Assembly (NCBI RefSeq): GCF_002813295.1
Contig: NZ_PHUE01000001.1
Location: 682,001 to 746,000 of the forward strand
Origin: Flavobacterium sp. 5
Lineage (GTDB): Bacteria; Bacteroidota; Bacteroidia; Flavobacteriales; Flavobacteriaceae
Reading direction: 5' to 3'
DNA: 64,000 nt
Every line of letters starts with the position of its first letter. Within the stretch, counting starts at the first letter, position 1. This document shows, piece after piece, positions 8,798 to 25,934 of the stretch. The position numbers and the translations under genes are program-made. The notes under the pieces are model-generated. The model was not told the origin of the DNA. It did no database searches and saw only the letters and a list, made by a program, of their open reading frames with translations.

Positions 8798-9553
8798 TTA
8801 TTGATATACTTTAATATAATCAATCAAAAATTCCTGAGGAAAAATGGTATCATCAACCTTTGGCCCTCCAAAATTACCTCCTACTGCCAAATTAACTAAA
8901 AAATAAAAAGGTTGGTCGAAAGGCCAAGTATTTTCGTCTTTAATTTCTGGTTGAAAAGTATAAATCAAATCTTTATCTACAAAAAAGTCTATTTTATCTT
9001 TTGTCCACTCTATCGCATAAATATGATAACCTTCTTCAATATTTGATATTATTGTTTTTTTACTATTAATAGAGTTTCCGTGACTATCTTGTGTATGCAA
9101 AGTAGTATACACCGTATGAGGTTCGCGTCCAATATATTCCAAAATATCAATTTCACCACACTTAGGCCAATTCTTTTCCGCTAAATTAGAACCTAACATC
9201 CAAAATGCAGGCCATATTCCATACCCTAAAGGTAATTTGGCTCTAGCTTCCAAACGTCCGTATTGAAATTCCTTTTTCGCTTTGGTATTAATCCGAGTGG
9301 ACGTATAACTATCTCCTTCTTTCTTGGCGGTTATAATTAACTTTCCATTTTCCAACCTATGATTTTGATTAGTATATAGCTCACGTTCATTATTTCCCCA
9401 ACCACAATTGGGACACCCATCGCCTAATTCAATATTCCAAACTTTATCATTCAAAGTTTTACCATCAAAATTCTCTTCCCAAACCAATTTTCTTTTAGTT
9501 TGTTGTCCGAATACAGCCCCACTTATCAGCAGGATTATCATAAATTTATTCAT
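8798..9553 (-). CDS. GH16 endo-beta-1,3-glucanase (laminarinase), secreted
   Basis: The 251-residue protein has a signal peptide (residues 1-16, MNKFMIILLISGAVFG) with no lipobox, followed by a single GH16 domain. The catalytic block GEIDILEYIG places the nucleophile at Glu134, the helper at Asp136 and the acid/base at Glu139. WPAFWML before it and the AVGGNFGG block after it are typical of the laminarinase branch (GH16_3). It should cut internal beta-1,3 bonds of laminarin-like glucans in the periplasm. Only 7 bases separate it from the GH3 gene, so both are translated from one mRNA: GH16 makes oligomers and GH3 releases glucose. Confidence 0.92.
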   Translation of the reverse strand: MNKFMIILLISGAVFGQQTKRKLVWEENFDGKTLNDKVWNIELGDGCPNCGWGNNERELYTNQNHRLENGKLIITAKKEGDSYTSTRINTKAKKEFQYGRLEARAKLPLGYGIWPAFWMLGSNLAEKNWPKCGEIDILEYIGREPHTVYTTLHTQDSHGNSINSKKTIISNIEEGYHIYAIEWTKDKIDFFVDKDLIYTFQPEIKDENTWPFDQPFYFLVNLAVGGNFGGPKVDDTIFPQEFLIDYIKVYQ

Positions 9554-9560
9554 CCTTATT

Positions 9561-11852
9561 TTATTTTACAAATTGGAATTCCCCTTTTAATGTTTCTACA
9601 GAATTACCTCCTATGAAGACTTTAAAATCTCCAGTTTCAGCTTCCCATTTTCTATTAGCAGTAAAAAATTCAATTGTTTTTTCATTTATCTCAAAAGTAA
9701 CTCTTTTAGTTTCATTAGGTTTTAATTCAATCATTTCAAACCCTTTCAATTCCAAAACAGGTCTAGTGATACTCGCTATTAAATCTCTAATATAAAGTTG
9801 AACCACTTCTTTACCTTTAACTTTTCCACTGTTTTTTACCAAAACAGATACTTCTATTTTACCATTTTTCGAAAAAGATTGTGAAGATAATTTCAAATTT
9901 GAATATTCAAATTTAGAATAACTTAAACCAAATCCAAAAGGATATAAAGGAGTATTTTTTTCATCTATATAATGCGACCAAAAAACACTATCTGGTTCGT
10001 TCATTATAGGTCTTCCTGTGCTTTTATAATTATAATAAATTGGCACCTGAGCCACATTACGAGGAAAAGTCATTGGAAGTTTTCCACTTGGATTGTAATC
10101 TCCGTACAATACTTGCGCAATCGCGTTACCACTTTGAGTTCCAAGTTGCCATGCTTCAACGATAGCAGGAATATGTTCCTCTGCCCAAGGAATAGCTAAT
10201 GGGCGTCCATTGTTAAGTACCAAAACTATATTTGAATTTACTTTATATATTGCTTCCAATAGTTCTTGTTGCACACCTGGCAAACCTAAATCTGCTCTAC
10301 TTCTACCTTCACCCGATTGCAAACCATATTCCCCTAAAACTAGTATTACAACATCAGCTTTTTTTGCAGTAGTTATAGCTTCCTCAAAACCTGATTTATC
10401 AGTGGTGTTTATTTTGGTTTCCAATATAAATTTTGGCGAACCAAGTGCAACATCAGCACCTTTAGCATAAGTTAGCTGATTATCTTTATATGCTTGTAAA
10501 CCTTCTAAAACTGAAACAGCGGTATTCTCATCGGCTGCAATTCTCCAACTTCCCAACGGACTTGTTTTATCATTTGCCAAAGCACCAATCAAAGCTATTT
10601 TTTGTCCAGATTTTTTTAAAGGTAATACATCATTATTATTTTTCAACAAAACAATCGATTTTTTCGCCATGTCCAAAACTTCATTTTGAAACTCCTGTTT
10701 TCCAACAGTTGCCAATTCTCTGGCTTCATCACAATATTTATATGGATTATCAAACAACCCCAATTCAAACTTTACTCTAAGTATTCTTCGAACGGCATCG
10801 TCAACAGTAGTTTCCTTCACTTTACCTTCGTGAACCAATTGAGCTAAATAATCAACATAAGCACTAGATTCCATATCCATATCAGAACCCGCATTAATAG
10901 CAATTTCTGCAGCTTGTTTGTCATCTTTGGCAAATCCGTGCGCCTTCATTTCTTGAATAGAACCCCAATCTGACACAACAAAACCTTTAAATTTCCAATC
11001 TCCTTTCAGAACTTCCCTTTGTAAATAAGGATTACCTGTTGCAGGAATACCATTTAGTTCATTAAAAGAATTCATAAATGTTCGAACACCAGCATCTAAA
11101 GAGGCCTTAAAAGGAGGAAAAACAACATTTTGCAAAGTTGATTCCCCTAGATCTACCGAATTGTAATCTTTACCCGATTCTGCAAAAGCATAACCTGCAA
11201 AATGCTTGGCGCAGGCCAAAATATTTTTATTAGAACTTAGATCCCCCTGAAAACCTTTGACACGAGCAACCGCAATTCTACTTCCTAAATAAGAATCTTC
11301 ACCTGCTCCTTCCATAACACGCCCCCAACGTGCATCACGAGACACATCCACCATTGGCGCAAATGTCCAATTTATTCCTACGGATGAAGCTTCATCAGCG
11401 GCCATTTCTGCAGATTTTTGAATAGCATCCATATCCCAACTAGCTGATTCAGCTAGCGGTATAGGACTAATGGTTTTATAGCCATGAATCACATCAAAAC
11501 CAAAAAGAAGTGGAATTCCCAATCGGGTTTGTTCAACAGCTATTTTTTGCAAGGCTCTTACATCTTTTACACCTTTTACATTCAACATGGAACCTACTAA
11601 ACCTTTTTTTAAATCCTCATATTTTTTTGCTGCCAAACCTTCTTTTGGTGTTGGTCCAGTTACATCCCAAAAGCCATTGTATTGATTAAGTTGCCCAACT
11701 TTCTCCTCAAGAGTCATTTTCTTTAAAAGTATCTCAACTTTTTTATCAAAAGAAACCTCTTTTTTAACTTTAGTTTGTGCCTTAACTGAGCCTATTACAA
11801 ACAACCCAACTGCTAAAAAAAACAAAAAAAACCTTCTATTCATTTGTACCAT
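9561..11852 (-). CDS. GH3 beta-glucosidase, periplasmic (BglX-like)
   Basis: This 763-residue protein carries a signal peptide (to about residue 25, GSVKAQ), a GH3 N-terminal barrel, a GH3 C-terminal domain and a fibronectin-III-like end (YSNLKLSS onward). Key blocks are LFGFDVIHGYKT (about 116-127), KHFAGY (216-221) and FVVSDWGS with the nucleophile Asp295. The acid/base is probably in the GEGRSR loop of the second domain. It would release glucose from beta-linked gluco-oligosaccharides made by the GH16 enzymes. The start could be Met1 or Met4. A terminator-like hairpin lies just upstream, and a decayed copy of a similar gene is present near 18 kb. Confidence 0.93.
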   Translation of the reverse strand: MVQMNRRFFLFFLAVGLFVIGSVKAQTKVKKEVSFDKKVEILLKKMTLEEKVGQLNQYNGFWDVTGPTPKEGLAAKKYEDLKKGLVGSMLNVKGVKDVRALQKIAVEQTRLGIPLLFGFDVIHGYKTISPIPLAESASWDMDAIQKSAEMAADEASSVGINWTFAPMVDVSRDARWGRVMEGAGEDSYLGSRIAVARVKGFQGDLSSNKNILACAKHFAGYAFAESGKDYNSVDLGESTLQNVVFPPFKASLDAGVRTFMNSFNELNGIPATGNPYLQREVLKGDWKFKGFVVSDWGSIQEMKAHGFAKDDKQAAEIAINAGSDMDMESSAYVDYLAQLVHEGKVKETTVDDAVRRILRVKFELGLFDNPYKYCDEARELATVGKQEFQNEVLDMAKKSIVLLKNNNDVLPLKKSGQKIALIGALANDKTSPLGSWRIAADENTAVSVLEGLQAYKDNQLTYAKGADVALGSPKFILETKINTTDKSGFEEAITTAKKADVVILVLGEYGLQSGEGRSRADLGLPGVQQELLEAIYKVNSNIVLVLNNGRPLAIPWAEEHIPAIVEAWQLGTQSGNAIAQVLYGDYNPSGKLPMTFPRNVAQVPIYYNYKSTGRPIMNEPDSVFWSHYIDEKNTPLYPFGFGLSYSKFEYSNLKLSSQSFSKNGKIEVSVLVKNSGKVKGKEVVQLYIRDLIASITRPVLELKGFEMIELKPNETKRVTFEINEKTIEFFTANRKWEAETGDFKVFIGGNSVETLKGEFQFVK

Positions 11853-11863
11853 AACTTAATCTT

Positions 11864-11906
11864 TAAAAAAATAAGAAGACTGAAAACCACTCAATCTTCT
11901 TATTTT
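11864..11906 (-). terminator. Terminator-like hairpin directly upstream of the GH3 start
   Basis: AAAATAAGAAGA (11868-11879) pairs with TCTTCTTATTTT (11895-11906), 12 bp without mismatch. On the minus strand the stem is followed by seven T residues (11865-11871) and then, 12 bases later, by the GH3 ATG at 11852. It would stop most transcripts coming from susCD, so GH3/GH16 would depend on read-through or anti-termination. Confidence 0.6.
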
Positions 11907-11939
11907 ACATTACTAACCCAAAACTTATTAATAAATATT

Positions 11940-12215
11940 TATATTATCTACTTATGGTAGATTGTATGAAAGCTATATCCTCAATACTTCCAAAAGCTGA
12001 ATTCATCTCAACATTTAAGAATTTTAAAAATACAATGAAATCTCAATGAAGTATCTGAATTATCAAATACAGGAACTTGCATTTTAATAGTAGAAATTCC
12101 ACAGAAACATCAACCAATATAATACCCAATAAAACCTCCACTAGAAAGCTTCTAACACTTTCTATAATTTCTTTTGCAGCATCGAAATTTTCAAAAACAA
12201 AGGAGGTTAAAGGGA
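11940..12215 (-). pseudogene. Remains of a coding gene between susD and the GH3 gene
   Basis: On the minus strand protein-like stretches appear in different frames in the right order: FENFDAAKEIIESVRSF near 12180, then STIKMQVPVFDNSDTSLRF near 12085, then VEMNSAFGSIEDIAFIQST near 11990 followed by a stop. At least two frame changes separate them. The position after SusD is where laminarin loci usually carry a surface glycan-binding lipoprotein, so I infer the remains of such a gene, but the fragments are too short to name a family. Confidence 0.45.
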
Positions 12216-12286
12216 TTAAAAATACTTTTTAACATTTGTAGTATTAAAAAAGTATATTTTCATATTAGATACTATTTATTTTTTAA

Positions 12287-12347
12287 CAGCAAATGAAATC
12301 GTAATTCTTTACTTAAAAAATTAAAATTATCGCAATTTCATTTGCTG
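12287..12347 (-). other. Hairpin after susD, possible mRNA 3'-end stabiliser
   Basis: CAGCAAATGAAAT (12287-12299) and ATTTCATTTGCTG (12335-12347) are perfect 13-bp arms around a 35-base loop, 70 bases downstream of the SusD stop. No T run follows on the minus strand, so protection of the susCD message from decay is more likely than termination. A second AT-rich stem lies at 12220-12256. Confidence 0.5.
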
Positions 12348-12416
12348 CTATTTATTATTCTTAACTATCACACTAATTTATTTTTTAATAAATTTATTTC
12401 TATGACAATCTTGTTT

Positions 12417-13910
12417 TTAATATCCAGGATTTTGCTTCCAATTTCCATTAGAAAACTGAATCTCTTCTAAAGGAATTGGAAATAACTCGTGTTTACCAAC
12501 AACAAAACCACTGATTGCAGCTGCCGCTTTTCCTGTTCTAACCAAATCAAAAAATCGTAAACCTTCTCCAACAAATTCAACTCTTCTTTCTTTCCAGATA
12601 GCATCTGTCAATCCTGAACCTGTAGCAGATATTCTATGACTTGTATTACCAAAAGCTCGGTCTCTTACTTGATTTAAATATCCTAATGCTTTAGCATCAT
12701 CTAAACCTCCACGATTAAGTGCTTCGGCTGCCATCAATAAAACATCAGCATAACGAATAGCTCTATAATTATTAGGATTGGTTAATTTTAAATCATTGGA
12801 AGCTTCATTACGCCTTGTTCTTGGTAAGTATTTTTGACTAAAGTAACCTGTATCTTCATTTCCTTTACTATAGGTAACTGGATGTCCAGGTGTACTATTT
12901 GCTGTTGCCCAAGCAGCAATATCAAGCACGGAGACATCTCTTCTTAAATCTCCAATTTCAAATGCGTCATGAGTTTCTTTGGTTGGTACATTGAAACTCC
13001 ATCCTGAAGAATATTTAGGCCCTACATAATCTCTAACGCCGCTAAAGCCAACTGCTATATTTCCTTCACTACATTGTTTACAAACATAACTTGCACCTTC
13101 GATATCTGTATACTGCACTTCAAAAATAGATTCTGGTCCATTTTCACCTTCCATTTCAAAAATTGACCCATAATCAGTAACCAAAGAATATTTAGAAGAC
13201 GCAATTACTTTTTCAAAAGCAATTGCAGCTTCAGGAAATTTATTATCATACAAATAAGCTTTTCCAAGTAAAGCAAGAGCTGCACCTTTCGTAACTTTCC
13301 CTTGTACTGAAGCGTCAGCTGATAAATTATCAGCTGCATAAATCAAATCTGACTCTATAGAAGCATATACCTCAGCGACAGAAGAACGTGGTATCTTTGT
13401 TTCATCACCTGGAGCAAATCTTTTATCTCCATTTAGTGGAATACCACCAAACCATTTTACCAATTCAAAATGATAATAAGCTCTAAGAAAACGAGCTTCA
13501 GCAATAATCTGATTCTTACCCTCAAAATCAGTTTTATCTTTAAACTCTAAAATATAATTTGCCCTTTGAACACCTGCAAACATCCAATCCCAAGTGTTTT
13601 TAATATTTTCATTCACCGGAGTGTGTATCATATCATCAATTTGTTGCCAACCGGCAACATCGGTAGCATCTCCACCTCCTGCTAAAGTATTATCCGAAGC
13701 AAATTCCCCCATGATAACATTATTATATGTCGTTTGAAGCAAGTCATAAGCTCCAACTAAAGCATTTTGATAATCCTCTTTAGAATTGAAATAACTCTCC
13801 GAATCTATCGAATATTGAATAGGACGTTCTATAAAATTATCGCTGCATGAAACAAAAATAGCAGAGAAAAGTGCCATACTTGTTACTGTAATAAATATAT
13901 ATTTTTTCAT
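12417..13910 (-). CDS. SusD/RagB-family outer-membrane glycan-binding lipoprotein
   Basis: The 497-residue lipoprotein has a type II signal (MKKYIFITVTSMALFSAIFVSC, lipobox Cys22), an N-terminal SusD-like domain (about 25-240, with TPR-like helices such as IIAEARFLRAYYHFELVKWFGGIPL) and the C-terminal RagB/SusD region ending in the usual IPLEEIQ-NGNWKQNPGY motif. SusD proteins sit as a lid on their SusC transporter at the cell surface and pass oligosaccharides to it. It is encoded 10 bases after the SusC gene, so the two are co-expressed. With GH16 and GH3 enzymes nearby, the ligand is probably laminari-oligosaccharide. Confidence 0.93.
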   Translation of the reverse strand: MKKYIFITVTSMALFSAIFVSCSDNFIERPIQYSIDSESYFNSKEDYQNALVGAYDLLQTTYNNVIMGEFASDNTLAGGGDATDVAGWQQIDDMIHTPVNENIKNTWDWMFAGVQRANYILEFKDKTDFEGKNQIIAEARFLRAYYHFELVKWFGGIPLNGDKRFAPGDETKIPRSSVAEVYASIESDLIYAADNLSADASVQGKVTKGAALALLGKAYLYDNKFPEAAIAFEKVIASSKYSLVTDYGSIFEMEGENGPESIFEVQYTDIEGASYVCKQCSEGNIAVGFSGVRDYVGPKYSSGWSFNVPTKETHDAFEIGDLRRDVSVLDIAAWATANSTPGHPVTYSKGNEDTGYFSQKYLPRTRRNEASNDLKLTNPNNYRAIRYADVLLMAAEALNRGGLDDAKALGYLNQVRDRAFGNTSHRISATGSGLTDAIWKERRVEFVGEGLRFFDLVRTGKAAAAISGFVVGKHELFPIPLEEIQFSNGNWKQNPGY

Positions 13911-13920: not shown

Positions 13921-16900
13921 TTAAAAATTAACGTTTAAACCAAACAAATACGTTTTAGGAATTGGATAAAAACCATTATCAATTCCTCCACCAATTGGTG
14001 CTCCGTTAGATGCACCTGGATCATAGCCTTTGTATTTTGTAAAAGTATATAGGTTATTAACCCCCATATAAACCCTAAATTTAGTTATACCTACTTTCTT
14101 AAAATAGTCAGGATCTACTGAATATCCTAGTTGTACATTTTGAATACGTATATAAGAAGCATCCTCAACAAAATAATCCGAAAGCACATTGTTTGTAGTT
14201 GCATCTGTAGTTACTCTTGGAACTGTATTGCTTGTTCCTGCACCATGCCATCTGTCTAGTATGTAATCCAAATGATTAACATCAGTTAATACTTTTTCAT
14301 AATTTCTTATCATCTCATTTCCTATAGAAGCAAAAGTATAAGCTACAAAATCAAAGTGCTTATAATCTAATTGTAGATTAAAACCCATAGTTGCTGCTGG
14401 AATTGGATTACCAATATCTGTTCTGTCAAAATTATTGATTACACCATTTCCGTCAACGTCAACATAACGAATATCCCCAGGCTTAGCCTCGGCACCTAAT
14501 GCTATTTGAGAAGGAGCTGCGTCAACTTCTGCTTGATTTTGAAAAATACCATTGGTTTTGTAACCAAAGAAATACCCCAACGGTTTCCCTTCTTCCATTC
14601 TAGATGGCGGAGATTGTCCTGTACTAAACGATCCGCCTTCAATATAATGAGTACCATTCTTTACTTCTGTTACTACATTTTTAATAAAAGTTACATTATA
14701 TCCTAAACTCAAAGAAAGTTTATTGGAAAAAGTTTTACTATAATCGATTGCAAATTCAACACCTGTATTTTTTACTGATCCAGCATTCATGGTTGGAGGG
14801 CTTGCACCTGGAGCCGATACCCCAAGAATACCAGAAACTGGAATCCATGCAATCAACAAATCTTTTCTATTATCAATAAAATAATCAGCAACAATATTGA
14901 TTTTGTTTTGAAACATTTTAATATCCAAACCAACGTCAAATTTTTTCGCTTCTTCCCATTTCAAGTTTGGATTTGGGATCTGTCCTGTTGCTTTACCGAA
15001 AACAATAGCATCCTTATCAGTAGCATTACTATAAACATAAGCAGCTTCACCACTTAATTGAGAAACATAACCATTAGGAGGAATTTGATCGTTCCCGAGA
15101 ACTCCATAACTTCCTCTCAGTTTCAAGAAATTTACTGTGCCTTCATTCCCACCAAAGAAGTTTTCATCAGAAATAACCCATCCAGCAGTCATCGAAGGGA
15201 AATACGCTACTCTATTATTAGGACCAAATCTTGTTGAAGAATCACGTCTTAACATAGCAGAAAAAAGATATTTACCTTTGAAATCATATTGAGCTCTTGC
15301 AAAATAAGACAATCTTCTTTCATCAAAATATTCTGTTCTATTCGGAGGTGTTTTAGGAAATCCATTAGCCAAACTAATATCTGCGTACTCCCATGAATTA
15401 TAAGGAACATCAAAACCAGTAGCAAACAATTTATTACCATAGTCTTTAAAAACTGTTGTACCTAAAGTTCCTACTATATTATGTTCACCTACTTTTTTAG
15501 CATATGTACCATATAGATCCAAAGAATAATTATATGCGAATTCTGCACCTTGAGTAACAGAACTTCTTTTTACATCAAAAACTTTTCCTCCATAATCAAC
15601 TATTTTTCCAAATACTCTACTTTGTATACTTTGAGTATTAAAACCTAGTGACCCAGACATTGTAAATGCATCAGTTACCTTATAATCCAATCCAATATTT
15701 CCATTAAATTTTCTCAACTCATTACTATTGTAAGTATTATCAATCTGTGCTAATGGATTGATAATTTCTGCACCAAATCCCGCTGCAGGTACCAAAGTAT
15801 AATTTCCGTTACTATCGTAAGGACTTTGTGTAGGAGCAACATTCAAAGCATTAAATAAAGCAGTACCTAATCCACCACCGTCATCATTTAAAGTTTTTCT
15901 AGTTTGAAAAGTATAAATTACATTAGTTTTCAACTTTAAGCGATCGGATACATCTGCTCCAAGAGAAATACGTCCTGAGTTTCTCAAAAAACCAGATTTA
16001 TCACCTCCAACTATACCTTTTTGATCCACATGAGAAGCACTTACTGCATAAGTAATTTTTTCAGATCCACCACTTATTGATAAATCATAATTAATGATTG
16101 GTGCTGGATTAAAAATTTCTTTTTGCCAATTAGTTCCTTCTCCTAATTCAGAAACATTTGGATAAGGCAAAGGTTTACCACTAAAAGAATAACTTTCGTT
16201 TAATAGATTTGCATACTGAGTTGCATTTAATGTTGGTAAATTTCTACTAGCGACTTGAATACCTGTTGAAGAGTTAAAAGAAATTCTTGCTTTAGAATTT
16301 TTCTTACCCATTTTGGTAGTTACAAGAATAATTCCATTAGCTCCTATTGTACCGTAAATAGCAGCCTGAGCATCTTTTAAAACGGTAAGTGATTCAATAT
16401 CATTCGGACTTAAAGTACTTAAATCTCCTATATATCCATCAATGATGGCAGTTGGTTTATTTTCTCCATTAGTTGAAATACCACGAATACGAACGCTGAT
16501 GTCGGCACCTGGTGCTCCACCTATTGTCGTAACATTTACTCCAGATACAGTTCCTTGTAATGCTTGTTCAATTTTTACAGGTCTTAGTGTTTCAATTGTT
16601 TTACTACTTACCACACTTACAGCACCAGTAAGTTGCTTTTTCTTTACACTTCCGTAACCAATAACAACAACTTCACTCAAAGCTTTCGGTTCGTCCTGCA
16701 AGTTGATTACTATATTTGAATCACCTTCATTAACAATATACTCTATTGATTTATAACCTACATATGTAAAGACAAGAGTGGTTCCTGTGGATACTTCTTT
16801 AAAAGAAAACTTTCCATCAAAACCAGTGACTTCAGTGGAACCTGATTTTTTGTCCGTAACGTTTACACCATACAAGGGTAAACCTGAACTTTGTTCTTTT

Positions 16901-16983
16901 ACTGTTCCCACAAATCCCTTCTTTTGGGCAAAACCAAAAGCAGAAAAAAGCAAAAAGATAATTAATAAATGATTTAACTTCAT
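13921..16983 (-). CDS. SusC/RagA-family TonB-linked outer-membrane transporter
   Basis: This 1020-residue protein has a signal peptide (1-19, ending FGFAQ), a CarboxypepD_reg-like domain (about 22-100), a TonB-contact and linker region (ALSEVVVIGYGSVKKKQLTG, near 103-122), a plug domain (about 120-230, with AIIDGYIGDLSTLSPNDIESL and GANGIILVTTK) and a 22-strand barrel ending in FGLNVNF. It imports oligosaccharides across the outer membrane using TonB energy. It is the first gene of an operon with SusD. Its promoter carries a 21-base activator box repeated upstream of the second glucan operon (see the promoter entry at 17011-17069). Confidence 0.95.
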   Translation of the reverse strand: MKLNHLLIIFLLFSAFGFAQKKGFVGTVKEQSSGLPLYGVNVTDKKSGSTEVTGFDGKFSFKEVSTGTTLVFTYVGYKSIEYIVNEGDSNIVINLQDEPKALSEVVVIGYGSVKKKQLTGAVSVVSSKTIETLRPVKIEQALQGTVSGVNVTTIGGAPGADISVRIRGISTNGENKPTAIIDGYIGDLSTLSPNDIESLTVLKDAQAAIYGTIGANGIILVTTKMGKKNSKARISFNSSTGIQVASRNLPTLNATQYANLLNESYSFSGKPLPYPNVSELGEGTNWQKEIFNPAPIINYDLSISGGSEKITYAVSASHVDQKGIVGGDKSGFLRNSGRISLGADVSDRLKLKTNVIYTFQTRKTLNDDGGGLGTALFNALNVAPTQSPYDSNGNYTLVPAAGFGAEIINPLAQIDNTYNSNELRKFNGNIGLDYKVTDAFTMSGSLGFNTQSIQSRVFGKIVDYGGKVFDVKRSSVTQGAEFAYNYSLDLYGTYAKKVGEHNIVGTLGTTVFKDYGNKLFATGFDVPYNSWEYADISLANGFPKTPPNRTEYFDERRLSYFARAQYDFKGKYLFSAMLRRDSSTRFGPNNRVAYFPSMTAGWVISDENFFGGNEGTVNFLKLRGSYGVLGNDQIPPNGYVSQLSGEAAYVYSNATDKDAIVFGKATGQIPNPNLKWEEAKKFDVGLDIKMFQNKINIVADYFIDNRKDLLIAWIPVSGILGVSAPGASPPTMNAGSVKNTGVEFAIDYSKTFSNKLSLSLGYNVTFIKNVVTEVKNGTHYIEGGSFSTGQSPPSRMEEGKPLGYFFGYKTNGIFQNQAEVDAAPSQIALGAEAKPGDIRYVDVDGNGVINNFDRTDIGNPIPAATMGFNLQLDYKHFDFVAYTFASIGNEMIRNYEKVLTDVNHLDYILDRWHGAGTSNTVPRVTTDATTNNVLSDYFVEDASYIRIQNVQLGYSVDPDYFKKVGITKFRVYMGVNNLYTFTKYKGYDPGASNGAPIGGGIDNGFYPIPKTYLFGLNVNF

Positions 16984-17010: not shown

Positions 17011-17069
17011 CAAACATATTGGGAAGACTTGAAGAAAACGCAAAATGAACCACAACAAAAAACATACAA
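17011..17069 (-). promoter_or_regulatory. SusC promoter with activator box
   Basis: On the minus strand: a -7 element TATGTTTGC (plus CAAACATA at 17011-17018), a 22-base spacer, a -33 element TTTTG (17041-17045), 3 bases, then a 21-base box (17049-17069) that contains GTTGTGGT at its promoter-side end. Box, 3-base gap, -33 and 22-base spacer are repeated exactly in the promoter near 22.9 kb. The predicted leader is about 20 bases. The box is placed as expected for an activator bound next to the -33 element. Confidence 0.75.
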
Positions 17070-17136: not shown

Positions 17137-17345
17137 TTAAATACGAATATAAAAAACACAACAATACATCAATGTTGTGGTAATGTATGGGCGATTTAAA
17201 AAAAATAAGGACAACCTATACCTCGACAATATACTCGTAACTACTTGTTCATCTGATAAATCCATCTTTTCACGCAAACGATATCTTTTTCTCTCAATAC
17301 TTGACAAACAAATATTAAACAAAGGAAATGGTTCCTTAAAAAAAG
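17137..17345 (-). pseudogene. C-terminal remnant of a SusR-like (LuxR-type HTH) regulator
   Basis: The minus strand encodes KEPFPLFNICLSSIERKRYR followed by LREKMDLSDEQ, closely matching the end of the intact regulator at 23133-25934 (KEMAPLLNISVRSVEIKRYR, LRKKMDLTHEQ). After the EQ the frame is lost by what looks like a 2-base deletion relative to the intact gene, and upstream of KEPF stops appear in every frame. The DNA downstream also matches: ATGTTGTGGTAATGTAT occurs after both genes (17172-17188 and 23089-23105). This is the last part of the recognition-helix domain of a dead paralogue, not a small gene. Confidence 0.75.
17172..17188 (+). promoter_or_regulatory. GTTGTGGT element, copy next to the regulator remnant
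   Basis: ATGTTGTGGTAATGTAT here is identical to 23089-23105. Its GTTGTGGT core is the inverse of the core in the SusC promoter box at 17049-17056, so ACCACAACA and TGTTGTGGT face each other 133 bases apart. The same pair occurs near 22.95-23.10 kb. A second regulator-binding site or loop partner is possible. Confidence 0.5.
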
Positions 17346-17799
17346 TAATAATTATGAGTTAAATACATCGCTAAAATCACTTAACATTTAGCCTGGCAGA
17401 ATAGAATTGATCCTTTTATAAAGCAATTATCCACCTTATCAAAATCTTTAAAATAATATTCAATATTATTTTAAATAATTTCACTAATTAAGTTTATCGC
17501 AAGCGATATACACCACATAATACATGACTTTTGATCTAAAAATATCAAATGCTATTGATTTCAATTCGCGAATCATCTTAAGTTATTATCAAGACATTGC
17601 TAATTCTATCGTTTTTTAAAATCAGATTATTTGAAATCCAAATATGCAGCAACACTTTGAAATTCGAATAATCATTAATTTACAATCTAAAAACAAATAG
17701 AATACTCGTGTGGTATAACTTTACATTAGTATTATTGGGAGTAATAATTTCGAATGCATTTACTTTGGAATCATAAATACAAAAACTATTTATGATTTT
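17346..17799. other. Non-coding, decayed stretch between regulator remnant and GH3 remnant
   Basis: No open frame of useful length is seen on either strand. It is very AT-rich and lies between two gene remains, so it is probably eroded sequence of the regulator or of the GH3 gene, but I cannot align it by eye. Confidence 0.4.
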
Positions 17800-18390
17800 T
17801 ATAAATCCAATTATTTCCATTAAAAAAGGATAGAACTAACTTTTTGAACCATTGGCTCATAAAGTCATTAATTAAAAGTAAAAAGACATTGGTTTTATGA
17901 TTGTCAAATCAATCAATTTTGATAAATAACCTTATATAAATTTGAGATCTACTTTATAATTTAAAGAAGTTCTTTAGAAAAAATTATTATAAGTATAAAA
18001 ATTAAGGCAAGTATTTTCTTTTCAAAAATAGATTCTATTTAAAAAGCTAAATCAAAGAATCTGAGTCACCTATGGGTATTTCTAAAAAAATCAGCCCATA
18101 TGTATAAATATTAAATTCCGCTATAGCAATTTATTTTATTATCATTACTACTATTTTGATTAGTCTAAATCACAACTAGCAAGTTCTATAAATGATGCTA
18201 AACTAATTATTTTATAACCATGAATACATCGAAGCCAAAAAAGTGGAGTTTCTAAAAATTTTATTTAAACTGTTTTTTTGTAATACCGTAGCTCTTTTGG
18301 GTTGATCTTACAGTCTTCCAAAACTCATTGTTTTGTAGAATCTATTTAATATTCTAATTTTAAATAGTATAAACTACAGCATATCATGCA
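17800..18390 (-). pseudogene. Decayed GH3 beta-glucosidase gene
   Basis: The plus-strand text at 18160-18270 follows the same order as 11430-11540 inside the intact GH3 gene: CAACTAGC (the SASW codons), then TTTTATAACCATGAAT at 18210-18225 against TTTTATAGCCATGAAT, then a GTGGA block, then TTTAAACTGTTTTTTTGTAA against TTCAACAGCTATTTTTTGCAA. On the minus strand GFDV and IHGYK are both readable but in different frames, with stops between. Weaker matches continue to about 17.83 kb (TGAACCATTGGCTCATAAAG against CGAACACCAGCATCTAAAG). The remnant covers roughly residues 95-265 of the intact enzyme; the rest is gone. Confidence 0.7.
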
Positions 18391-18608
18391 CTTCTCTACT
18401 AAATATTCGATACTAAAAGAAAAATAAAAAGTGAAAGAAAAAGAAAAATTAAGAATAAATTAAATTTTAGATATATAGATTTCATAATAAATTAATTTTA
18501 TAAGTTAAATTTTTACTTCCAAAATCACAACTATGAATTGAAGTTCTAACTAAAGAAAATCCTATTCCCTTTTTAATTATTAAAATTTAAGACTATAATT
18601 ATTTGGGG

Positions 18609-18998: not shown

Positions 18999-20309
18999 TT
19001 AATAAATCTTTAACCAGTTTAAATGTAACGATCCTTTGTTTAGAAAAATTCGAATTGTGTGTTTACCAGAATTTAGTTTTACTGGTACTTTAGCATTACT
19101 CCAAATAAAATCTTTCACAGTGTTTTTTAGTAAAAAGGTTGTTCCTAATTTACCATCTACTTCAATATTTATTTCAGAATCAACAAAACAAGAATATCTT
19201 AATTCAAGTGTAAAATCTTTGGTCCTATCTATATCAAACTGATATTCAACCCATTGTTTAGGCAAAAAATCATACAATTCTAAGGATTCATTTGGTGCAT
19301 CTGTAGTAATTTTTACATGTGGACCATTTACCCAACTACCATTACCTCCATCAGCAATGCTAATAGAGCTATAATGTTCCGCTTCTACAAGTTGTTGCTC
19401 AACATAGTATGCACTTTTATCTTGAGTAGACATTTGTACAAATATTTTTCCAAGATCTGTTAATTTTACTTCAGGTGTATTTGTTAAAAGTGCCATGTAT
19501 GGGAATGCATCTATATTTGATACTCTCGGAGTAAACCATGCATATCTAAAAACATCAGGGTCACTTTCTAAGTAATTTATTACATCTGAAAGGTGTTTTT
19601 GTTGACCTTCGGGTGCAAAAGTGTTTTTGTTTAAACCGTCCCATGCACAAAATTCTGTTAACCAAATTGGTTTTCCATATTTTTTAAAAAGTTGAACATA
19701 GGATTTAACAGAAGCTGCATTTGGCATATAACAGTGTATTGAAATACCATCAATATCACTTAAAGGCACAAGTGCAAAAAATTCATCCAACCATTTAACA
19801 GGATTACTATAGTTTGCTAATGTTCCATAATTCATAGCAGGAGAAATTACTTTTAAACCTAATTCATCTGCAATTGATTTAACATCACCCCATTTTGCAG
19901 CAGCTTGTTGAGGTGTCATATTAGCCTGATCAGTTAAGTTTGGTTCATTAAAAGCAAGTAAGTATTTACACTTTGGATGGTCTTTCACATAAGAACGTAA
20001 AGCATCTTTATTGATTCCATTCCATGCCATAGGGCAAAAATCTATATCATTTTTTGCGACAGCATCATCAAAAGCAATATTTTGGGAAATACCCCAATTA
20101 TATGACCACGACATGCCTTTTCCTAAAAGATTTACATCATTAATATTTTGGTAGTTAAAACCTCCTCCTCTTTTTGTACTACGCTTTTGAAAGACTTCTT
20201 GTTTTGGAGTATAGTTATCAGTAGAATTATCTTCAGAGTCTGATTTAGAGCAACTACAAAACAAAGATACCGTAGCCAGACAAATTAATTTTAGATTGAA
20301 TAATTTCAT
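18999..20309 (-). CDS. GH128-like endo-beta-1,3-glucanase with CBM6, surface lipoprotein
   Basis: The 436-residue lipoprotein has a type II signal ending FCSC (Cys20) followed by SKSDSED, an acid-rich start like the flavobacterial surface-export signal. Residues about 45-285 look like the glycosyl-hydrolase catalytic core of GH128: FNEPN with the probable acid/base Glu122, ISIHCYMPN near 190, and IWLTEFCAWDG with the probable nucleophile Glu219. The last 130 residues (VEAEHYSS to SLHLNWLKIY) form a CBM6-type beta-sandwich. GH128 enzymes cut internal beta-1,3-glucan bonds. It is the last intact gene of the operon, 24 bases after the GH16 gene. Confidence 0.82.
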   Translation of the reverse strand: MKLFNLKLICLATVSLFCSCSKSDSEDNSTDNYTPKQEVFQKRSTKRGGGFNYQNINDVNLLGKGMSWSYNWGISQNIAFDDAVAKNDIDFCPMAWNGINKDALRSYVKDHPKCKYLLAFNEPNLTDQANMTPQQAAAKWGDVKSIADELGLKVISPAMNYGTLANYSNPVKWLDEFFALVPLSDIDGISIHCYMPNAASVKSYVQLFKKYGKPIWLTEFCAWDGLNKNTFAPEGQQKHLSDVINYLESDPDVFRYAWFTPRVSNIDAFPYMALLTNTPEVKLTDLGKIFVQMSTQDKSAYYVEQQLVEAEHYSSISIADGGNGSWVNGPHVKITTDAPNESLELYDFLPKQWVEYQFDIDRTKDFTLELRYSCFVDSEINIEVDGKLGTTFLLKNTVKDFIWSNAKVPVKLNSGKHTIRIFLNKGSLHLNWLKIY

Positions 20310-20333: not shown

Positions 20334-21401
20334 TTACTGTAGCTGATATACTCTAACGTAGTCTACTTGATACAAAACTGGATTATTAAATATAGTGTCA
20401 TCAATACCTTGTATTCCTCCCCAGTTACCACCAATAGCAAAATTAAGGATAAAGAAAAAGTTTTTATTAAATGGCCAGTCACCAGAATCTTGTAACGGTG
20501 GAGTTTCACCAAATGTTGTAGTTTCAACACCGTCAATAGAAATGTGGATTCTATCAAAACCTAATAATTCGTCTTTAACCCATTCCATTGTAATAATATG
20601 GAAATCATTAGCTACATTTTCTGCTAATTCCTGAGTTCCTTTAAAATTTTGGCCATTCATACCGTTTTTATTTTTTGTATGAAGTGCGCAATGAATCGCT
20701 TTAGGTTGATAACCTACATGTTCCATAATATCTATCTCACCAGCACTAGGCCAAGATCCATAACCAAGCATCCAAAATGCTGGCCATGTACCTTTACCAC
20801 TAGGTACTTTTAAACGAGCTTCAATTTTACCATAAGCAAAATCTTTTTTATTCGCAGACTTTATACGTGCAGAAGTGTATGCACTACCTTCATAATTTTC
20901 TTTTCGAGCTTCTATGGTTAAAAAACCATTTTCAACACGAATATTTTCAGGTCTGTTCGTATAATATTGTTTTTCATTATTTCCCCAACCGTTACCTCCG
21001 GTTTCGTAAGCCCAGTTATCAGTATTTAATGTATTTCCATCAAATTCATCAGACCAAACTAATTTATAAGTTCTTTGAGCTACTGTTACTGTACATTGAG
21101 CAGTATGAGTTCCAAGCGTAGCTGTAATTATAGCAGTTCCACTTTGCTGAGCAGTTACAATACCATTAAAAACTGTTGCTACTACTTTGTTACTTGTACT
21201 CCAAACCAGCGTTTCATTAGTAGATGGAGCTTTTGTAACAGTTAAAGTTTCATTTTCTCCAACATCCATTTTTAATTCACTGTTGTTCAATTCTAATTTT
21301 ACATCAGAAACAATAGGGTTGTCGTTATCTGAAGAATTGCTTGAACAAGAATAAAAAGCAAATTGTAGTAAGATTATTAAAAATAAATATTTGTGTCGCA
21401 T
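20334..21401 (-). CDS. GH16 laminarinase lipoprotein with N-terminal Ig-like (BIG2) domain
   Basis: The 355-residue lipoprotein has lipobox Cys19 followed by SSNSSDNDN, a bacterial Ig-like domain (about 35-107, VVATVFNGIVTAQQSGTAII) and a GH16 domain (about 112-355). The catalytic block GEIDIMEHVG gives nucleophile Glu222, Asp224 and acid/base Glu227. WPAFWMLG and FAIGGNWGG flank it as in beta-1,3-glucanases. Anchored at the cell surface, it would make the first cuts in laminarin, while the non-lipidated GH16 at 8798 works further in. It lies between the 330-residue lipoprotein gene (81-base gap holding a strong hairpin) and the GH128 gene. Confidence 0.92.
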   Translation of the reverse strand: MRHKYLFLIILLQFAFYSCSSNSSDNDNPIVSDVKLELNNSELKMDVGENETLTVTKAPSTNETLVWSTSNKVVATVFNGIVTAQQSGTAIITATLGTHTAQCTVTVAQRTYKLVWSDEFDGNTLNTDNWAYETGGNGWGNNEKQYYTNRPENIRVENGFLTIEARKENYEGSAYTSARIKSANKKDFAYGKIEARLKVPSGKGTWPAFWMLGYGSWPSAGEIDIMEHVGYQPKAIHCALHTKNKNGMNGQNFKGTQELAENVANDFHIITMEWVKDELLGFDRIHISIDGVETTTFGETPPLQDSGDWPFNKNFFFILNFAIGGNWGGIQGIDDTIFNNPVLYQVDYVRVYQLQ

Positions 21402-21439
21402 TTGTATTTGGGGTTGAATTAAAAAAGTGCTTTTAAATT

Positions 21440-21470: not shown

Positions 21471-21482
21471 ATATTTATAGAT

Positions 21483-22475
21483 TTATTTTGCTTTTTTGTA
21501 ATAAAAAATAGCATCTAAATCAATAGTAGTACCTGCTGTACCACCCCCTAAAACTGCAAGGATATTTTTCTTCACTAATGGTTTATCAAAAAACAATCCT
21601 AATTCATTTAATTTAGTTACAGGAACTTCTATACTATTCCATTTACCGTCAGTTGTAATTGTTGCAAAAGAAGGATAAGTAGTACCATTATCAACAAAAT
21701 CTCCACCGATAGAAAATTTCCCATCTGCATTTCCATCATTTACAATAATTGCAATTGGACGACCCGTTTGACTTGTTTTATATCCAATATGCAAGTAATA
21801 ATCTCCAGGATTATCAAACAAATCAGTCATATCAACAGGGCCAAAATCAGCATTAGTATTCCATCCTGCACCAGACCATCCAACAGTACCTACAACTAAA
21901 CTTACCCAGCCTTGGCTTAATCCGTAAAAATTAGTTCCTGCAGGAGTACCAGCAGATAAAGTATTTTCCCAAATATATAGATTTTTATTAACATCATCTG
22001 GACGTAAATCAGCAGTAACCTTACTTTGAATACTAGCAAAAGAAACATCGTCTAATTGTAAAACAAAGTAATTACTACCTGATAATGAAGGATCAGTAAC
22101 AACAACATCTTCTCCAGTAACAGTAACTACACAAGTAGCTGTAAAAGTACCGATAGCAGCTACAATTGAAGCTGTTCCTTTTTTAACTGCAGTAACAACA
22201 CCACTATTATTAACGCTTGCAACTGTTGCATCTGAAGAGCTCCAAGAAACGTTACCAGTAGCACCTGCTGGTGCTAATGTAGCTCCCAAAGTAGCTGTTG
22301 CTCCTTCTTTTAAACTTAAGGTTGTTTTATCTAATGAAACTCCTGTTACAGTAATAACATTGCTTCCTCCATTGCCATTATCGTTTCCACCATCATCACT
22401 ACTACTACAGCCTGTTGTTTGTAGTGTTATAACAGCACATAATAAAGTAAATAATAAAAATTTGATTTTAGTCAT
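21483..22475 (-). CDS. Surface lipoprotein with BIG2 domain, probable glycan-binding protein
   Basis: The 330-residue protein has a lipoprotein signal (lipobox TGC, Cys23) followed by SSSDDGGNDNGNGGSN, a Ser/Asp/Gly-rich linker, then an Ig-like BIG2 domain (about 40-120, TVTGVSLDKTTLSLKEGATA onward) and a C-terminal beta-rich domain of about 200 residues with Trp/Tyr/Asp blocks (NFYGLSQGWVSLVVGTVGW, DYYLHIGYKTSQTGRP). No catalytic motif is seen. Such proteins next to GH16 genes commonly bind beta-glucan at the surface (SGBP). It is the first intact gene of the second glucan operon, but sits about 430 bases from the predicted promoter because of a decayed gene in between. Confidence 0.75.
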   Translation of the reverse strand: MTKIKFLLFTLLCAVITLQTTGCSSSDDGGNDNGNGGSNVITVTGVSLDKTTLSLKEGATATLGATLAPAGATGNVSWSSSDATVASVNNSGVVTAVKKGTASIVAAIGTFTATCVVTVTGEDVVVTDPSLSGSNYFVLQLDDVSFASIQSKVTADLRPDDVNKNLYIWENTLSAGTPAGTNFYGLSQGWVSLVVGTVGWSGAGWNTNADFGPVDMTDLFDNPGDYYLHIGYKTSQTGRPIAIIVNDGNADGKFSIGGDFVDNGTTYPSFATITTDGKWNSIEVPVTKLNELGLFFDKPLVKKNILAVLGGGTAGTTIDLDAIFYYKKAK

Positions 22476-22560
22476 GATTTTAATTTTTTTAATTGGTTAA
22501 TTATTAATTAAGTAATTGAGTTTGTATGTAACTCGGTAATCTCGGAATTGCTTATTGTAT

Positions 22561-22574
22561 AAGAGGCCTCTTAA
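22561..22574. other. Perfect 14-bp palindrome TAAGAGGCCTCTTA
   Basis: The palindrome extends outward with ATTGT/ACAAT arms after one mismatch on each side (22555-22580). It lies 27 bases after the stop of the decayed first gene of the operon, so it may be that gene's old transcript-end structure; a protein-binding site is an alternative. Confidence 0.5.
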
Positions 22575-22600
22575 ACAATACAATAACCTACTCAAACAAT

Positions 22601-22893
22601 TAATGATTTATTATTTTAGTAGTTTTTGCAACTCCGTTTGCTTTAATTTTTAATGTATATCTAGATTTACAGAATTTGCTTTTATTAAACTTCATCCCAC
22701 TAATATCAAAGTTTTGATATAGTAATAATTTGAAACTAGTTTAAAAGAGATCTGATTTTTTTTGCTTCTATTAAATTTCAACTATTAATAATGAAATATA
22801 AATACAGCGTCATTTCATCTTCATTAACCTAAAGGTTTATAAAGACTATAAAATGATATTAGTACAAAAAATTGCTTGGTGATTTGGTTTCAT
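22601..22893 (-). pseudogene. Decayed first gene of the second glucan operon
   Basis: A likely start ATG at 22893, about 15 bases after the predicted transcript start, reads MKPNHQAIFCTNIIL and then stops. About 170 bases later another frame reads KSRYTLKIKANGVAKTTKII, then NH and a stop at 22601-22603. This end resembles the C-terminal sorting signal of type IX secretion cargo (K-x-KANG-TKKII type). I infer the two ends of an exported protein whose middle was deleted. The product is unknown. Confidence 0.45.
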
Positions 22894-22915
22894 ATTTATG
22901 TTTTTTAGTATGTGG

Positions 22916-22974
22916 TAAAACTATATGTAACGATTAACAATTAATCAAAACAAACCACAACAAAAAACATACAA
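22916..22974 (-). promoter_or_regulatory. Promoter of the second glucan operon with the shared activator box
   Basis: On the minus strand: near-consensus -7 TAGTTTTA (plus TAAAACTA at 22916-22923), 22-base spacer, -33 TTTTG (22946-22950), 3 bases, then the 21-base box at 22954-22974, identical to 17049-17069. The spacing equals that of the SusC promoter at every step, which strongly supports a shared activator. The leader to the first intact gene is about 430 bases. Confidence 0.72.
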
Positions 22975-22985
22975 AACAAAAAAAA

Positions 22986-23088
22986 AGCTGTTTTTTTTAC
23001 CATATTCTTCAAAAACCCCTTGTTTAACTAATAATTAAGAAGTGGTTTTTTTTGTATTTTTTTTGAAGAAATATGATAAAAAACAGCT
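22986..23088. terminator. Long imperfect hairpin after the regulator gene
   Basis: The arm starting AGCTGTTTTTTTTACCATAT (22986 onward) pairs with the arm ending ATATGATAAAAAACAGCT (23088). CATATTCTTC pairs with GAAGAAATATG and AAAACCCCTT with AAG-GGTTTT further in. It lies between the inverted GTTGTGGT elements at 22954 and 23089 and downstream of the regulator stop, so it probably ends the regulator transcript and insulates the operon promoter. Confidence 0.6.
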
Positions 23089-23105
23089 ATGTTGTGGTAA
23101 TGTAT
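23089..23105 (+). promoter_or_regulatory. GTTGTGGT element after the intact regulator
   Basis: ATGTTGTGGTAATGTAT, identical to 17172-17188. It faces the inverted core in the promoter box at 22954-22962, 145 bases apart end to end. Confidence 0.5.
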
Positions 23106-23132
23106 AGGAAAATGATATGCGTAAGAAGTGAA

Positions 23133-25934
23133 CTATACAGCCAGAATATATTCTACTAGACCTTGTTCATGTGTTAAATCCATTTTTTTACGCAAACGAT
23201 ATCTTTTTATTTCTACGCTACGAACAGAAATATTCAATAATGGAGCCATTTCTTTAGAAGACAAATTTAATCTCAAGTAAGCACACAATCTTAAATCATT
23301 TGGAGTTAATGACGAATGAGCTTCTTTCATTTTTTTCAAGAAATCTTTATCGGTTTTATCAAAAGCCTCTTGAAAAACACTCCAAGAATCTTTACCACTA
23401 ATATTTCTATTAATAGTAGAAATTACTGATTTGACACTTTTATTATCACTTTCGTTAGTATTTTTTAAATCTTCATGAATGTAAGCTAGTAATTCATTTT
23501 TACTATTTAGATTCATTGCAGAGGCCGCAAGTTCTTTATTAATAGCATCAACGTCTTGGGACAATTGTTCATTCTTAAGACGCATCATTTGATGCTCATT
23601 TTCTAATTCTTTAATTTCTAATAGTAAATTATTCTCCTCAATCAATTTTATTTCCTTTTTATGATAATAACTAACATATTGTTCGTGCATTAATTTAATT
23701 AAAATCAATCCTAGAACAAAATAAACTATAATAGCTAAAGTTGTGCCATACCATGGTTTTTGAATTGTGAAAGTATATACTACAGTATTATCAAGATTCG
23801 AGTTAGCATATTTAGCTCTTACTTTAAAAACATAATCACCTGCAGGCAAATTTTTAAAATTAACCGAAGATTTTACATTCCATTCACTCCAGCGATCCTG
23901 AAAACCTTCCAGCATATATTGATACTCTGCATTAATATATTTGTTGTATTCTGGAACCGTGTAATAAAAATTTATATTATTCTCGTCATTTTTAAAACTT
24001 CCTTTTTCATGAATTGAATTATTATGACTCGGCTCATTCAAAGCATTAGTTACTACACTAGATAGCAATACTTTATAATCCTTAAAAATCAAATCATTTA
24101 TATTCATAGTATAAAACCCGTCGGTAGCTCCAAAGAAATAATTAGATGGAGATAATTGTTTAATATTCTCATATCCCAACATTGAATTACTCAATGAAAC
24201 AGGAATTGGAATACTATTCTGTTTAAGCTGTTTACTTAATTTAGATGCTGAATAATAATTAATATAATTTTTAGAAAACAACCATATTCTGTTAGAACTA
24301 TCTACAATCATCTTACCTGAAGTGTACTGGTCTTTATCAAAAACAGAGCTTAATAAGACATCTTTTTCAAATTGCTTAGTCTTATCATTTAATTTAAAAA
24401 CCCCACCTTTATATGCATAATAAATTGAGTTATTAAATTTGACTAAACCAGCATTCTTACCTTTAGTTGGTTCTTTGTATATTGAATACTTTTTGATATT
24501 TTGAAGTTTACCATTAGTTTCTAATCTAAAAACTCCCTTGTATTCATGGCTAACATAAATCTCAAAATTATTAGTGATTTCAAGATATCTTGAGGAATAT
24601 TCAAACCCATTGAGTTTATTTCTAAAACTCCATTCATTATTCTTTTTTTCCAAGACCGAAATACCATAATAGTTCCCTTGTAATAAAAGCTCATTATGAC
24701 CTGGAACCCTAGTAAAATTCCATGTTCCAGATTTAGAAAAAATAAGATGAGCATTTCCATTATTGACCACAAATGTTCCGCTATGATGACCACAAAACAA
24801 GGTTCCATCATAAACAAACAGAGACCATACCTGTCCTTTTGTTCCCTTTACAAAAGTAAAATCCTCATCACTCTTAAAATCCTTGTAAAACAACCCTTGA
24901 TTAGTTCCTACATACAATTTATCATTATAAAGCTGAGATGTATATACCGTTCCTAAAACCCCCGAATTATCAACAAAACTCTGTATCGGAGATTTTAAAT
25001 TGATACAACTAATACCATTATCTAAACCAACCCATAAATTATTGTCAAAATCTTCAAATAAAGATAGCGCTGTATTATTACTCAAACCTTTTCTTTGTGT
25101 GATATGGAATTTTAATTTTCCTTCTTTACTTAAAATAAAAATTCCATTCGAAACAGTTCCAACAACAAAACCACCATCTGATAGAGTTTCACAACTATAC
25201 ACACTCCCTTCAGAAAACTCATTATCAATCTCTGTAGGGAATTTAGTTAATACATTTCCGGACAATTCATAAAAACCAGAACTTTGAGTCGATATCAATA
25301 ATTTATCTTCTTTTGCAAAAACATTAACAATAAGATTATTCTTTAATATAGGATTATCAGAAACCAACCTAATCATACCAGCTTCAATCTCATATAACCC
25401 TTGATTAATAGGCTGATAATAAATAGAATTTGCAGTTTTAAAAGATTTAAAAATATAACCATTGGGAGAAATTATTTTAAAATCGCCTTTATTAACATCA
25501 TAAATATAAATTCGGTGCGAAGATTGAAAAACTACCCAATGATCATAACTTAAAATATTCCAGAAATTTTCGTCATCTAAAAACTTCGACTGGACAAATT
25601 TACTAAGTGAATGATATTTTAATAATCCATCAGCTTTTCTTTTCCAAAAGCCAAATTCCATGTAACTTCCAGTATAAATTCTATCACCAATTACTTTAAC
25701 AGACCTAATGATAGTTTCATTGGGAGAAGGATACAATTGCCAATAAGAACCATTAAATTCTAGAAGCCCCTCATTATTTGCAAAAAAAACAAATTGATTT
25801 TTATCTTGTGAAATCATCCAGTTTTGATTTCCTGCTCCATATAAATTTGGTGCATAATTTACAATTGGCGGTAAACATTGAGAAAAAACAGAAATAGATA
25901 GGAGAAAAAAAAGTGAGGTTAGTTTTGTTTTCAT
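23133..25934 (-). CDS. SusR-like membrane-spanning regulator (beta-propeller, Y_Y_Y, LuxR-type HTH)
   Basis: The 933-residue protein has a signal peptide (1-18), a long periplasmic sensor built from reg_prop-type propeller repeats (about 30-630, for example NLWVGLDNGISCI and FFGATDGFYTMN), a Y_Y_Y domain (about 655-722), one membrane helix (about 727-747), a cytoplasmic coiled coil (750-815) and a C-terminal helix-turn-helix (about 875-925, LNISVRSVEIKRYRLRKKMD). It has no histidine kinase or receiver domain, so it is the SusR type, which senses a periplasmic sugar and binds DNA directly. It lies upstream of the second glucan operon. Its likely targets are the two promoters with the GTTGTGGT box. 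Confidence 0.88.
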   Translation of the reverse strand: MKTKLTSLFFLLSISVFSQCLPPIVNYAPNLYGAGNQNWMISQDKNQFVFFANNEGLLEFNGSYWQLYPSPNETIIRSVKVIGDRIYTGSYMEFGFWKRKADGLLKYHSLSKFVQSKFLDDENFWNILSYDHWVVFQSSHRIYIYDVNKGDFKIISPNGYIFKSFKTANSIYYQPINQGLYEIEAGMIRLVSDNPILKNNLIVNVFAKEDKLLISTQSSGFYELSGNVLTKFPTEIDNEFSEGSVYSCETLSDGGFVVGTVSNGIFILSKEGKLKFHITQRKGLSNNTALSLFEDFDNNLWVGLDNGISCINLKSPIQSFVDNSGVLGTVYTSQLYNDKLYVGTNQGLFYKDFKSDEDFTFVKGTKGQVWSLFVYDGTLFCGHHSGTFVVNNGNAHLIFSKSGTWNFTRVPGHNELLLQGNYYGISVLEKKNNEWSFRNKLNGFEYSSRYLEITNNFEIYVSHEYKGVFRLETNGKLQNIKKYSIYKEPTKGKNAGLVKFNNSIYYAYKGGVFKLNDKTKQFEKDVLLSSVFDKDQYTSGKMIVDSSNRIWLFSKNYINYYSASKLSKQLKQNSIPIPVSLSNSMLGYENIKQLSPSNYFFGATDGFYTMNINDLIFKDYKVLLSSVVTNALNEPSHNNSIHEKGSFKNDENNINFYYTVPEYNKYINAEYQYMLEGFQDRWSEWNVKSSVNFKNLPAGDYVFKVRAKYANSNLDNTVVYTFTIQKPWYGTTLAIIVYFVLGLILIKLMHEQYVSYYHKKEIKLIEENNLLLEIKELENEHQMMRLKNEQLSQDVDAINKELAASAMNLNSKNELLAYIHEDLKNTNESDNKSVKSVISTINRNISGKDSWSVFQEAFDKTDKDFLKKMKEAHSSLTPNDLRLCAYLRLNLSSKEMAPLLNISVRSVEIKRYRLRKKMDLTHEQGLVEYILAV

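Follow-up and report, generated by a model that had tools for sequence, protein, structure and literature searches.

Why should a bacterium keep two incomplete sets of genes for the use of one glucan side by side? The question is raised by a beta-1,3-glucan (laminarin-type) region of Flavobacterium sp. 5, found on the minus strand between 25.9 and 8.8 kb of a 64,000-nucleotide stretch of contig NZ_PHUE01000001.1 (positions 682,001 to 746,000; the whole stretch is called the window here). The region consists of two modules, and both contain decayed genes. Polysaccharide utilisation loci (PULs) move as wholes and vary in parts. We think that the region is probably a composite beta-1,3-glucan utilisation locus, in which two PULs of different origin were joined and then pruned. 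The PUL usual at this site (SusR-SusC-SusD-PKD lipoprotein-GH16-GH3-GH16) survives as SusC-SusD-GH3-GH16b, GH16b being its second GH16, together with remains of SusR and of the first GH16. Directly after uvrA comes a second SusR, which belongs to another lineage; it is followed by a promoter of the same type, a marine-like lipoprotein-GH16-GH128 block, and relics of GH30 and GH3.

Genes and relics of the two modules

A SusC/SusD pair with adjoining carbohydrate-active enzymes places the region among the PULs (SusC TIGR04056, 787 bits; SusD PF07980/PF14322; GH3, GH16, GH128). Judged by sequence and fold only, it also holds the components of a Bacteroidota 1,3-glucan locus, namely SusC, SusD, a second glycan-binding lipoprotein, GH3 and an endoglucanase. 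A sequence-only reading of this DNA had described two minus-strand modules that are complementary in what survives of them; each has a boxed promoter, dead genes and a SusR gene (dead in one module). Our analysis agrees on these points and finds the intact genes where that reading had put them (Table 1).

SusR-like regulators combine a Y_Y_Y sensor part with a C-terminal helix-turn-helix and have no histidine-kinase domain. The intact SusR has a Y_Y_Y match and no kinase domain listed, and a helix-turn-helix is indicated only by weak similarity to response regulators. By sequence and fold, the Big_2 lipoprotein downstream of it is probably a surface glycan-binding protein, and the GH16 and GH128 lipoproteins are probably surface endo-beta-1,3-glucanases. 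The latter matches PF11790 (E 2.4e-51), which we take to be GH128, and has relatives of solved structure (8j3x, 6uaw).

To test for relics, we scored each gap with DNA profiles built from relatives and took 100 dinucleotide-shuffled versions of the gap as control. The gaps were also searched with proteins of relatives, the control for 22.48-23.13 kb being 50 shuffles. DNA comparison outperformed the protein search in the gaps at 11.85 and 22.48 kb. The downstream module had been credited with only the last residues of its regulator, and more of it survives: ordered pieces correspond to residues 4-53, 144-205 and 894-924. In the profile test of 17.0-19.0 kb, the dead regulator scores 49.4 and 48.2 bits against -3.6 for the best shuffle. 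The N-terminal piece stays at shuffle level there (-3.7 bits) and aligns to G151, one of the closest genomes compared, at 71% over 151 bp (E 2.8e-13). The dead gene proposed at 11.9-12.4 kb is real and is a GH16 endoglucanase relic (12097-12243; 23.6 bits, best shuffle -3.8), which the protein search of this gap did not separate from shuffles (27.3 vs 28.1 bits). For the native PKD lipoprotein, nothing rises above shuffles in 11.85-12.42 kb.

In the upstream module, the proposed dead GH3 is borne out by the profile test (18.9 bits vs -3.2 for the best shuffle). Two relics had passed unnoticed: a GH30 piece (81.5% over 65 bp to Polaribacter; 64.4 bits, the highest of 200 shuffles reaching 35.6) and the final part of a lectin gene (41.9 and 46.4 bits vs 32.8 for shuffles). 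The decayed first gene placed at 22.6-22.9 kb is not confirmed. Profiles of SusC, SusD and the lipoprotein find nothing in 22.48-23.13 kb, so that no susC body is seen at the start of the module, and protein queries remain at shuffle level there (26.2 vs 27.3 bits, n=50). What this interval does contain is the promoter, a short open reading frame (ORF) with a susC-like start, probably the relic of a susC start, and the lectin-gene tail.

Table 1. Features of the region and its borders, in minus-strand order (window coordinates)
Feature	Position	Strand	Remarks
UvrA-like gene	26124..28940	+	customary left border of site
SusR-like regulator, 933 aa, Y_Y_Y domain	23133..25934	-	intact; lineage other than that of sister genomes
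Box 1, upstream promoter	23089..23105	-	
Box 2, upstream promoter	22953..22973	-	TAnnTTT at 22917-22923, 50 nt from box start
Short ORF with susC-like start	22846..22893	-	about the usual susC distance from box 2
Relic of F5/8-type lectin gene, 3' end and spacer	22499..22663	-	lectin precedes lipoprotein in Polaribacter and Tamlana
Big_2 lipoprotein with carbohydrate-binding-module-like sandwich	21483..22475	-	intact
GH16 lipoprotein (Big_2 + GH16)	20334..21401	-	intact
GH128 lipoprotein with CBM6/35-like module (under Pfam cut-off)	18999..20309	-	intact; PF11790
GH30 relic	18507..18571	-	GH30 follows GH128 in Polaribacter sp. IC066
GH3 relic, like GH3 of the genus	18163..18254	-	DNA profile
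Dead native SusR	17216..18017	-	fragments at about 17871-18017, 17589-17790, 17216-17452
Box 1, native promoter	17172..17188	-	
Box 2, native susC promoter	17048..17068	-	TAnnTTTG at 17012-17018
SusC, native	13921..16983	-	intact
SusD, native	12417..13910	-	intact
Remains of native GH16 endoglucanase	11853..12416	-	body 12097-12243; gene end and spacer before GH3 at 11853-11951
GH3, native	9561..11852	-	intact
GH16b (second GH16), native	8798..9553	-	intact
Extracytoplasmic function (ECF) sigma factor	7811..8395	-	customary right border of site

Native and foreign parts

The customary plan of the site in the genus is uvrA / SusR-SusC-SusD-lipoprotein-GH16-(GH3)-GH16b-ECF. We compared 60 loci found via SusR (one an extension of another) and 80 picked for holding the box described below; at E<=1e-100, 114 of 150 genus genomes have a SusR match, paralogues at 30-34% being counted in. 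The closest of the 10 genomes examined for kinship, G030, G151 and G288 (uvrA 96%; the sisters hereafter), have a single module, SusR-SusC-SusD-lipoprotein-GH16, to which G151 and G288 add GH3-GH16. The window is 76.3-78.0% identical to the sister modules in SusC, 75.5-78.7% in SusD and 66.1-67.2% in SusR, and to G151 and G288 it is 88.6-89.6% identical in GH3 and 82.9-84.1% in GH16b. G368 and G153 had also appeared as nearest species (uvrA 95%) and were dropped, as this figure stemmed from partial alignments.

Trees of SusR, SusC and GH3, made by a quick method from hand-picked rows, separate the parts. The window's SusC (support 100) and GH3 (98) join the sisters, and so does the dead SusR tail with its promoter (with all three, 100/98). 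The intact SusR joins G389, G005, G051 and G031 (support 98), away from the sisters; forcing it to them costs 211 log units (approximately unbiased test, p-AU 1.15e-5). A chimeric SusR produced by intragenic crossover was rejected, as sliding windows show no switch to sister-like sequence.

The lipoprotein-GH16-GH128 block has its nearest relatives among named genomes outside the genus, with shared gene order, as expected of horizontal acquisition. Of 398 genus genomes, 53 have a GH128 match at E<=1e-30; one of these is the genome of the window, and the others are distant (best-scoring 38%). Among named genomes, the best of 36 loci are those of Tamlana sp. I1 (GH128 75%) and Polaribacter sp. 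IC066 (69%); in the protein collection (126 matches at E<=1e-120), the best named one among the 120 listed is from Wenyingzhuangia (77%). The block order recurs in 9 of the 10 annotated loci among the 36, another gene replacing the lipoprotein in the tenth. Block DNA is 71-73% identical over 3.5-3.7 kb to the marine PULs of Tamlana and Polaribacter, and the proteins are 58/52% (lipoprotein), 71/70% (GH16) and 75/75% (GH128, in Polaribacter over residues 94-435) identical to theirs. Both share the order lectin-lipoprotein-GH16-GH128, followed by GH30 in Polaribacter, and carry it behind a SusD of their own (in Tamlana also a SusC; the locus from Polaribacter is cut off). In the window, by contrast, SusC/SusD are native, and only relics remain of lectin and GH30. 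The block is thus a gene set widespread in Bacteroidota and new to this genus as sampled.

These distributions bear on the idea that two long-adjacent PULs were both ancestral to the group and that one was lost in all sisters. Two full regulators do occur together in some genomes: in G119 they are separated by about 20 kb, and in G028 they lie on different contigs. Against this, the block was not found in the other sampled genus genomes (397 for GH128, 36 for GH16), and in G151 uvrA and the single SusR lie about 300 bp apart. We consider a lost ancestral pair very improbable. The uvrA-SusR gap is about 5.5 kb in G288 and about 8.3 kb in G030, pointing to further insertions at the same point.

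The sequence-only reading had proposed tandem duplication or insertion, followed by complementary loss. Insertion fits. Duplication is not supported, because the sisters have one module, the upstream middle part resembles other genera, the SusR lineage differs from that of SusC and GH3, and the dead SusR tail is sister-like; the modules are not copies of each other. The best two DNA self-matches between them lie in the regulator tail and promoter (72% over 170 bp and 90% over 41 bp), and the next ones are short, between the two GH16 genes. That reading had named relatives with a single arrangement as grounds for its rejection; the sisters have such an arrangement. Because the remnants are real, this counts against an old duplication only. 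We reject plain tandem duplication as a simple explanation, given the single-module sisters and the SusR, SusC, GH3 and tail trees, in which the copies are not mutual closest relatives.

A longer history would be an in-lineage tandem duplication of the native PUL, then foreign replacement of the upstream SusR and middle genes, then reciprocal loss. It would account for the native frame of the upstream module, which keeps SusR, box promoter, susC-like start and a genus-type GH3 relic. Moreover, left-end doubling does occur in the genus, as the two regulator tails of G007 are mutual nearest kin (0.957 in one analysis, 99/89 in the tail tree), and grouping the native promoter (P1) with the upstream one (P2) is borderline (p 0.058). 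Nevertheless, trees do not pair the two left ends of the window, and one extra event is required. The replacement would have to span the whole SusR gene, since nearly all sliding windows along it place it closer to the other lineage than to the sisters. We regard this history as unlikely.

According to the joining of two PULs that we favour, the second PUL would have come from a relative already carrying the marine block and entered between uvrA and the native regulator. At the left end, homologous recombination near uvrA is possible; the right end looks like an illegitimate join, and the sequence upstream of the sisters' susR is not recognisable ahead of the dead regulator. Redundancy would then have let both halves shed parts: the native PUL its regulator, lipoprotein and endoglucanase, the newcomer its GH3 and, probably, SusC/SusD.

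Several observations weigh against this account. The loss of the upstream SusC/SusD is read from position and the susC-like start, with no relic body, and the donor arrangement (SusR and marine block alone) was in no genome found. The GH3 relic spans about 90 bp and cannot be placed. In the promoter tree alone, the separation of P1 from P2 is not firm, at the p value given above, and P2 with the sisters is not rejected (p 0.309). P2 with the nearest lineage of the intact SusR is weakly rejected (p 0.039), which fits badly with SusR and P2 arriving as one piece. The composition of the block is not foreign-looking (G+C 0.316-0.344, window 0.312), and two metagenome GH128 proteins (both 77%) outscore that of Wenyingzhuangia and could stem from this genus. 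Finally, the dead regulator tail of G368, a genome of similar plan treated below, is weak, which also counts against the recurrent assembly proposed there.

Promoters and predicted working of the locus

Box 2, of 21 bp, is identical in both window promoters. Its exact pattern occurs in 120 of 398 genomes and is double in three: the window, G007 and G318 (on two contigs). No match of the reversed control of this pattern was noticed in the same survey. A wider pattern is found in 163 of the 398, double in four with the addition of G368 (control matches, n=1). For 118 of 121 boxes, a TAnnTTT sequence begins 49-51 nt after the start of the box; the -7 element of Bacteroidota reads TAnnTTTG. Following susR and single in nearly all box-bearing genomes, the box is a candidate operator of the SusR-like regulator, and its position and co-occurrence suggest that SusR would bind box 2. 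In G318, the second box adjoins genes of no assigned type. Box 1 lies directly 3' of susR and in many relatives, by eye, makes up the left side of a hairpin with T's behind it; it may be the susR terminator. The hairpin appears lost in the upstream copy of the window.

The gene that follows the first box was surveyed in 119 loci (139, less 21 without the exact box, plus the window). It is a SusC of type A in 92, of type B in 22 and of type C in 2; in 2 it is unassigned, and in the window alone it is the Big_2 lipoprotein.

It is tempting to propose that the sole intact regulator senses imported oligosaccharide and activates both promoters through the shared box 2. The foreign lipoprotein would bind, and the foreign GH16 and GH128 would cut, beta-1,3-glucan at the cell surface; native SusC/SusD would import the products, and native GH16b and GH3 would finish them in the periplasm. 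The net effect would be that surface parts are swapped and the importer is unchanged. Alternatively, the two modules might not make one working locus at all: the upstream module would be a fragment that is being lost, and function, if there still is any, would be left to the downstream module only. The upstream module indeed has no SusC/SusD, and its lectin, GH30 and GH3 are relics. Yet it retains full-length, open genes for lipoprotein, GH16, GH128 and SusR amid decayed DNA, the downstream counterparts of lipoprotein and endoglucanase are dead, and the downstream module has no regulator of its own. We find such a fragment distinctly unlikely.

Two known systems are comparable. Laminarin PUL variant A of marine Flavobacteriia has a GH3 framed by two GH16 (PMC6298971), an arrangement matched by sisters G151 and G288. 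The window keeps no more than a relic of the first GH16; its place is taken by the foreign GH16 and GH128, which have a separate promoter. The Bacteroides 1,3-glucan utilization locus (1,3GUL) has variable endoglucanases and glycan-binding proteins around a conserved core (PMC7157763) and, like the window, SusC/SusD, a second glycan-binding lipoprotein, surface endoglucanases and GH3. Its B. uniformis regulator is a hybrid two-component system, whereas that of the window is SusR-like; the window has GH128 rather than GH158, and its genes are spread over two promoters and two origins, unlike 1,3GUL (PMC7157763).

No publication on such a locus was among the matches listed in the open-access literature (titles and abstract openings). 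The locus shows an exchange of parts half finished, in which relics tell the sources of the parts and which copy died, and the conserved 21-bp box makes joint control of old and new genes testable.

The uvrA-ECF site in the genus

Like the window, G007 and G368 show uvrA-SusR-promoter-other block-dead SusR tail-promoter-SusC/SusD; unlike it, their block is of another SusC-SusD-GH16 type and the regulator ends of G007 are sisters. The order in G007 is SusR-block B-dead SusR-type-A SusC, and its dead regulator scores 76.6 bits in the protein search, where the best of 50 shuffles reaches 28.5, and 141.8 against -4.6 bits with the profile. G368 has the same order, a second box by the wider pattern, and a weak dead tail (6.8 bits vs -5.3 for shuffles), which the protein search for dead regulators missed and which was first spotted by eye, then scored. 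G036 has SusR-dead SusR tail-SusC (tail 50.6 vs -4.7 bits). The profile used for these tails contains the intact SusR of G007 and of G036. The dead tails of G368 and G036 join in the tree, but for branches of such length the program cautions that false joins are frequent. In G113, G147, G153, G181, G368 and G007, another block lies behind this promoter after a spacer of 273-332 nt, with a susC-like start inside the spacer in 4 of the 6. A leader after the start codon, common to the window, G368 and G181, has few sites only and was not used.

The uvrA-ECF beta-glucan site could be a recurrent assembly point, where incoming PULs stack between uvrA and the resident regulator, one regulator rules both through the conserved box, the redundant SusC-proximal regulator dies, and surface parts are swapped while the importer is kept. 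On this view, the window, G007 and G368 would have arisen separately, and G036 would represent a later stage. We offer this as a tentative proposal, with the chances somewhat against it.

In G036, a divergent SusR-like fragment (35%) also lies beside the intact SusR, upstream of it and on the opposite strand, the dead tail being downstream. In G030, a shortened type-B SusC-like ORF (422 aa) and more genes follow the type-A module with no regulator between, perhaps another composite. Elsewhere in the genome of the window itself (G000:C1:2866071-2877456), GH16- and lipoprotein-like genes lie close to a second regulator resembling SusR (32%), and together they probably form another PUL for beta-glucan.
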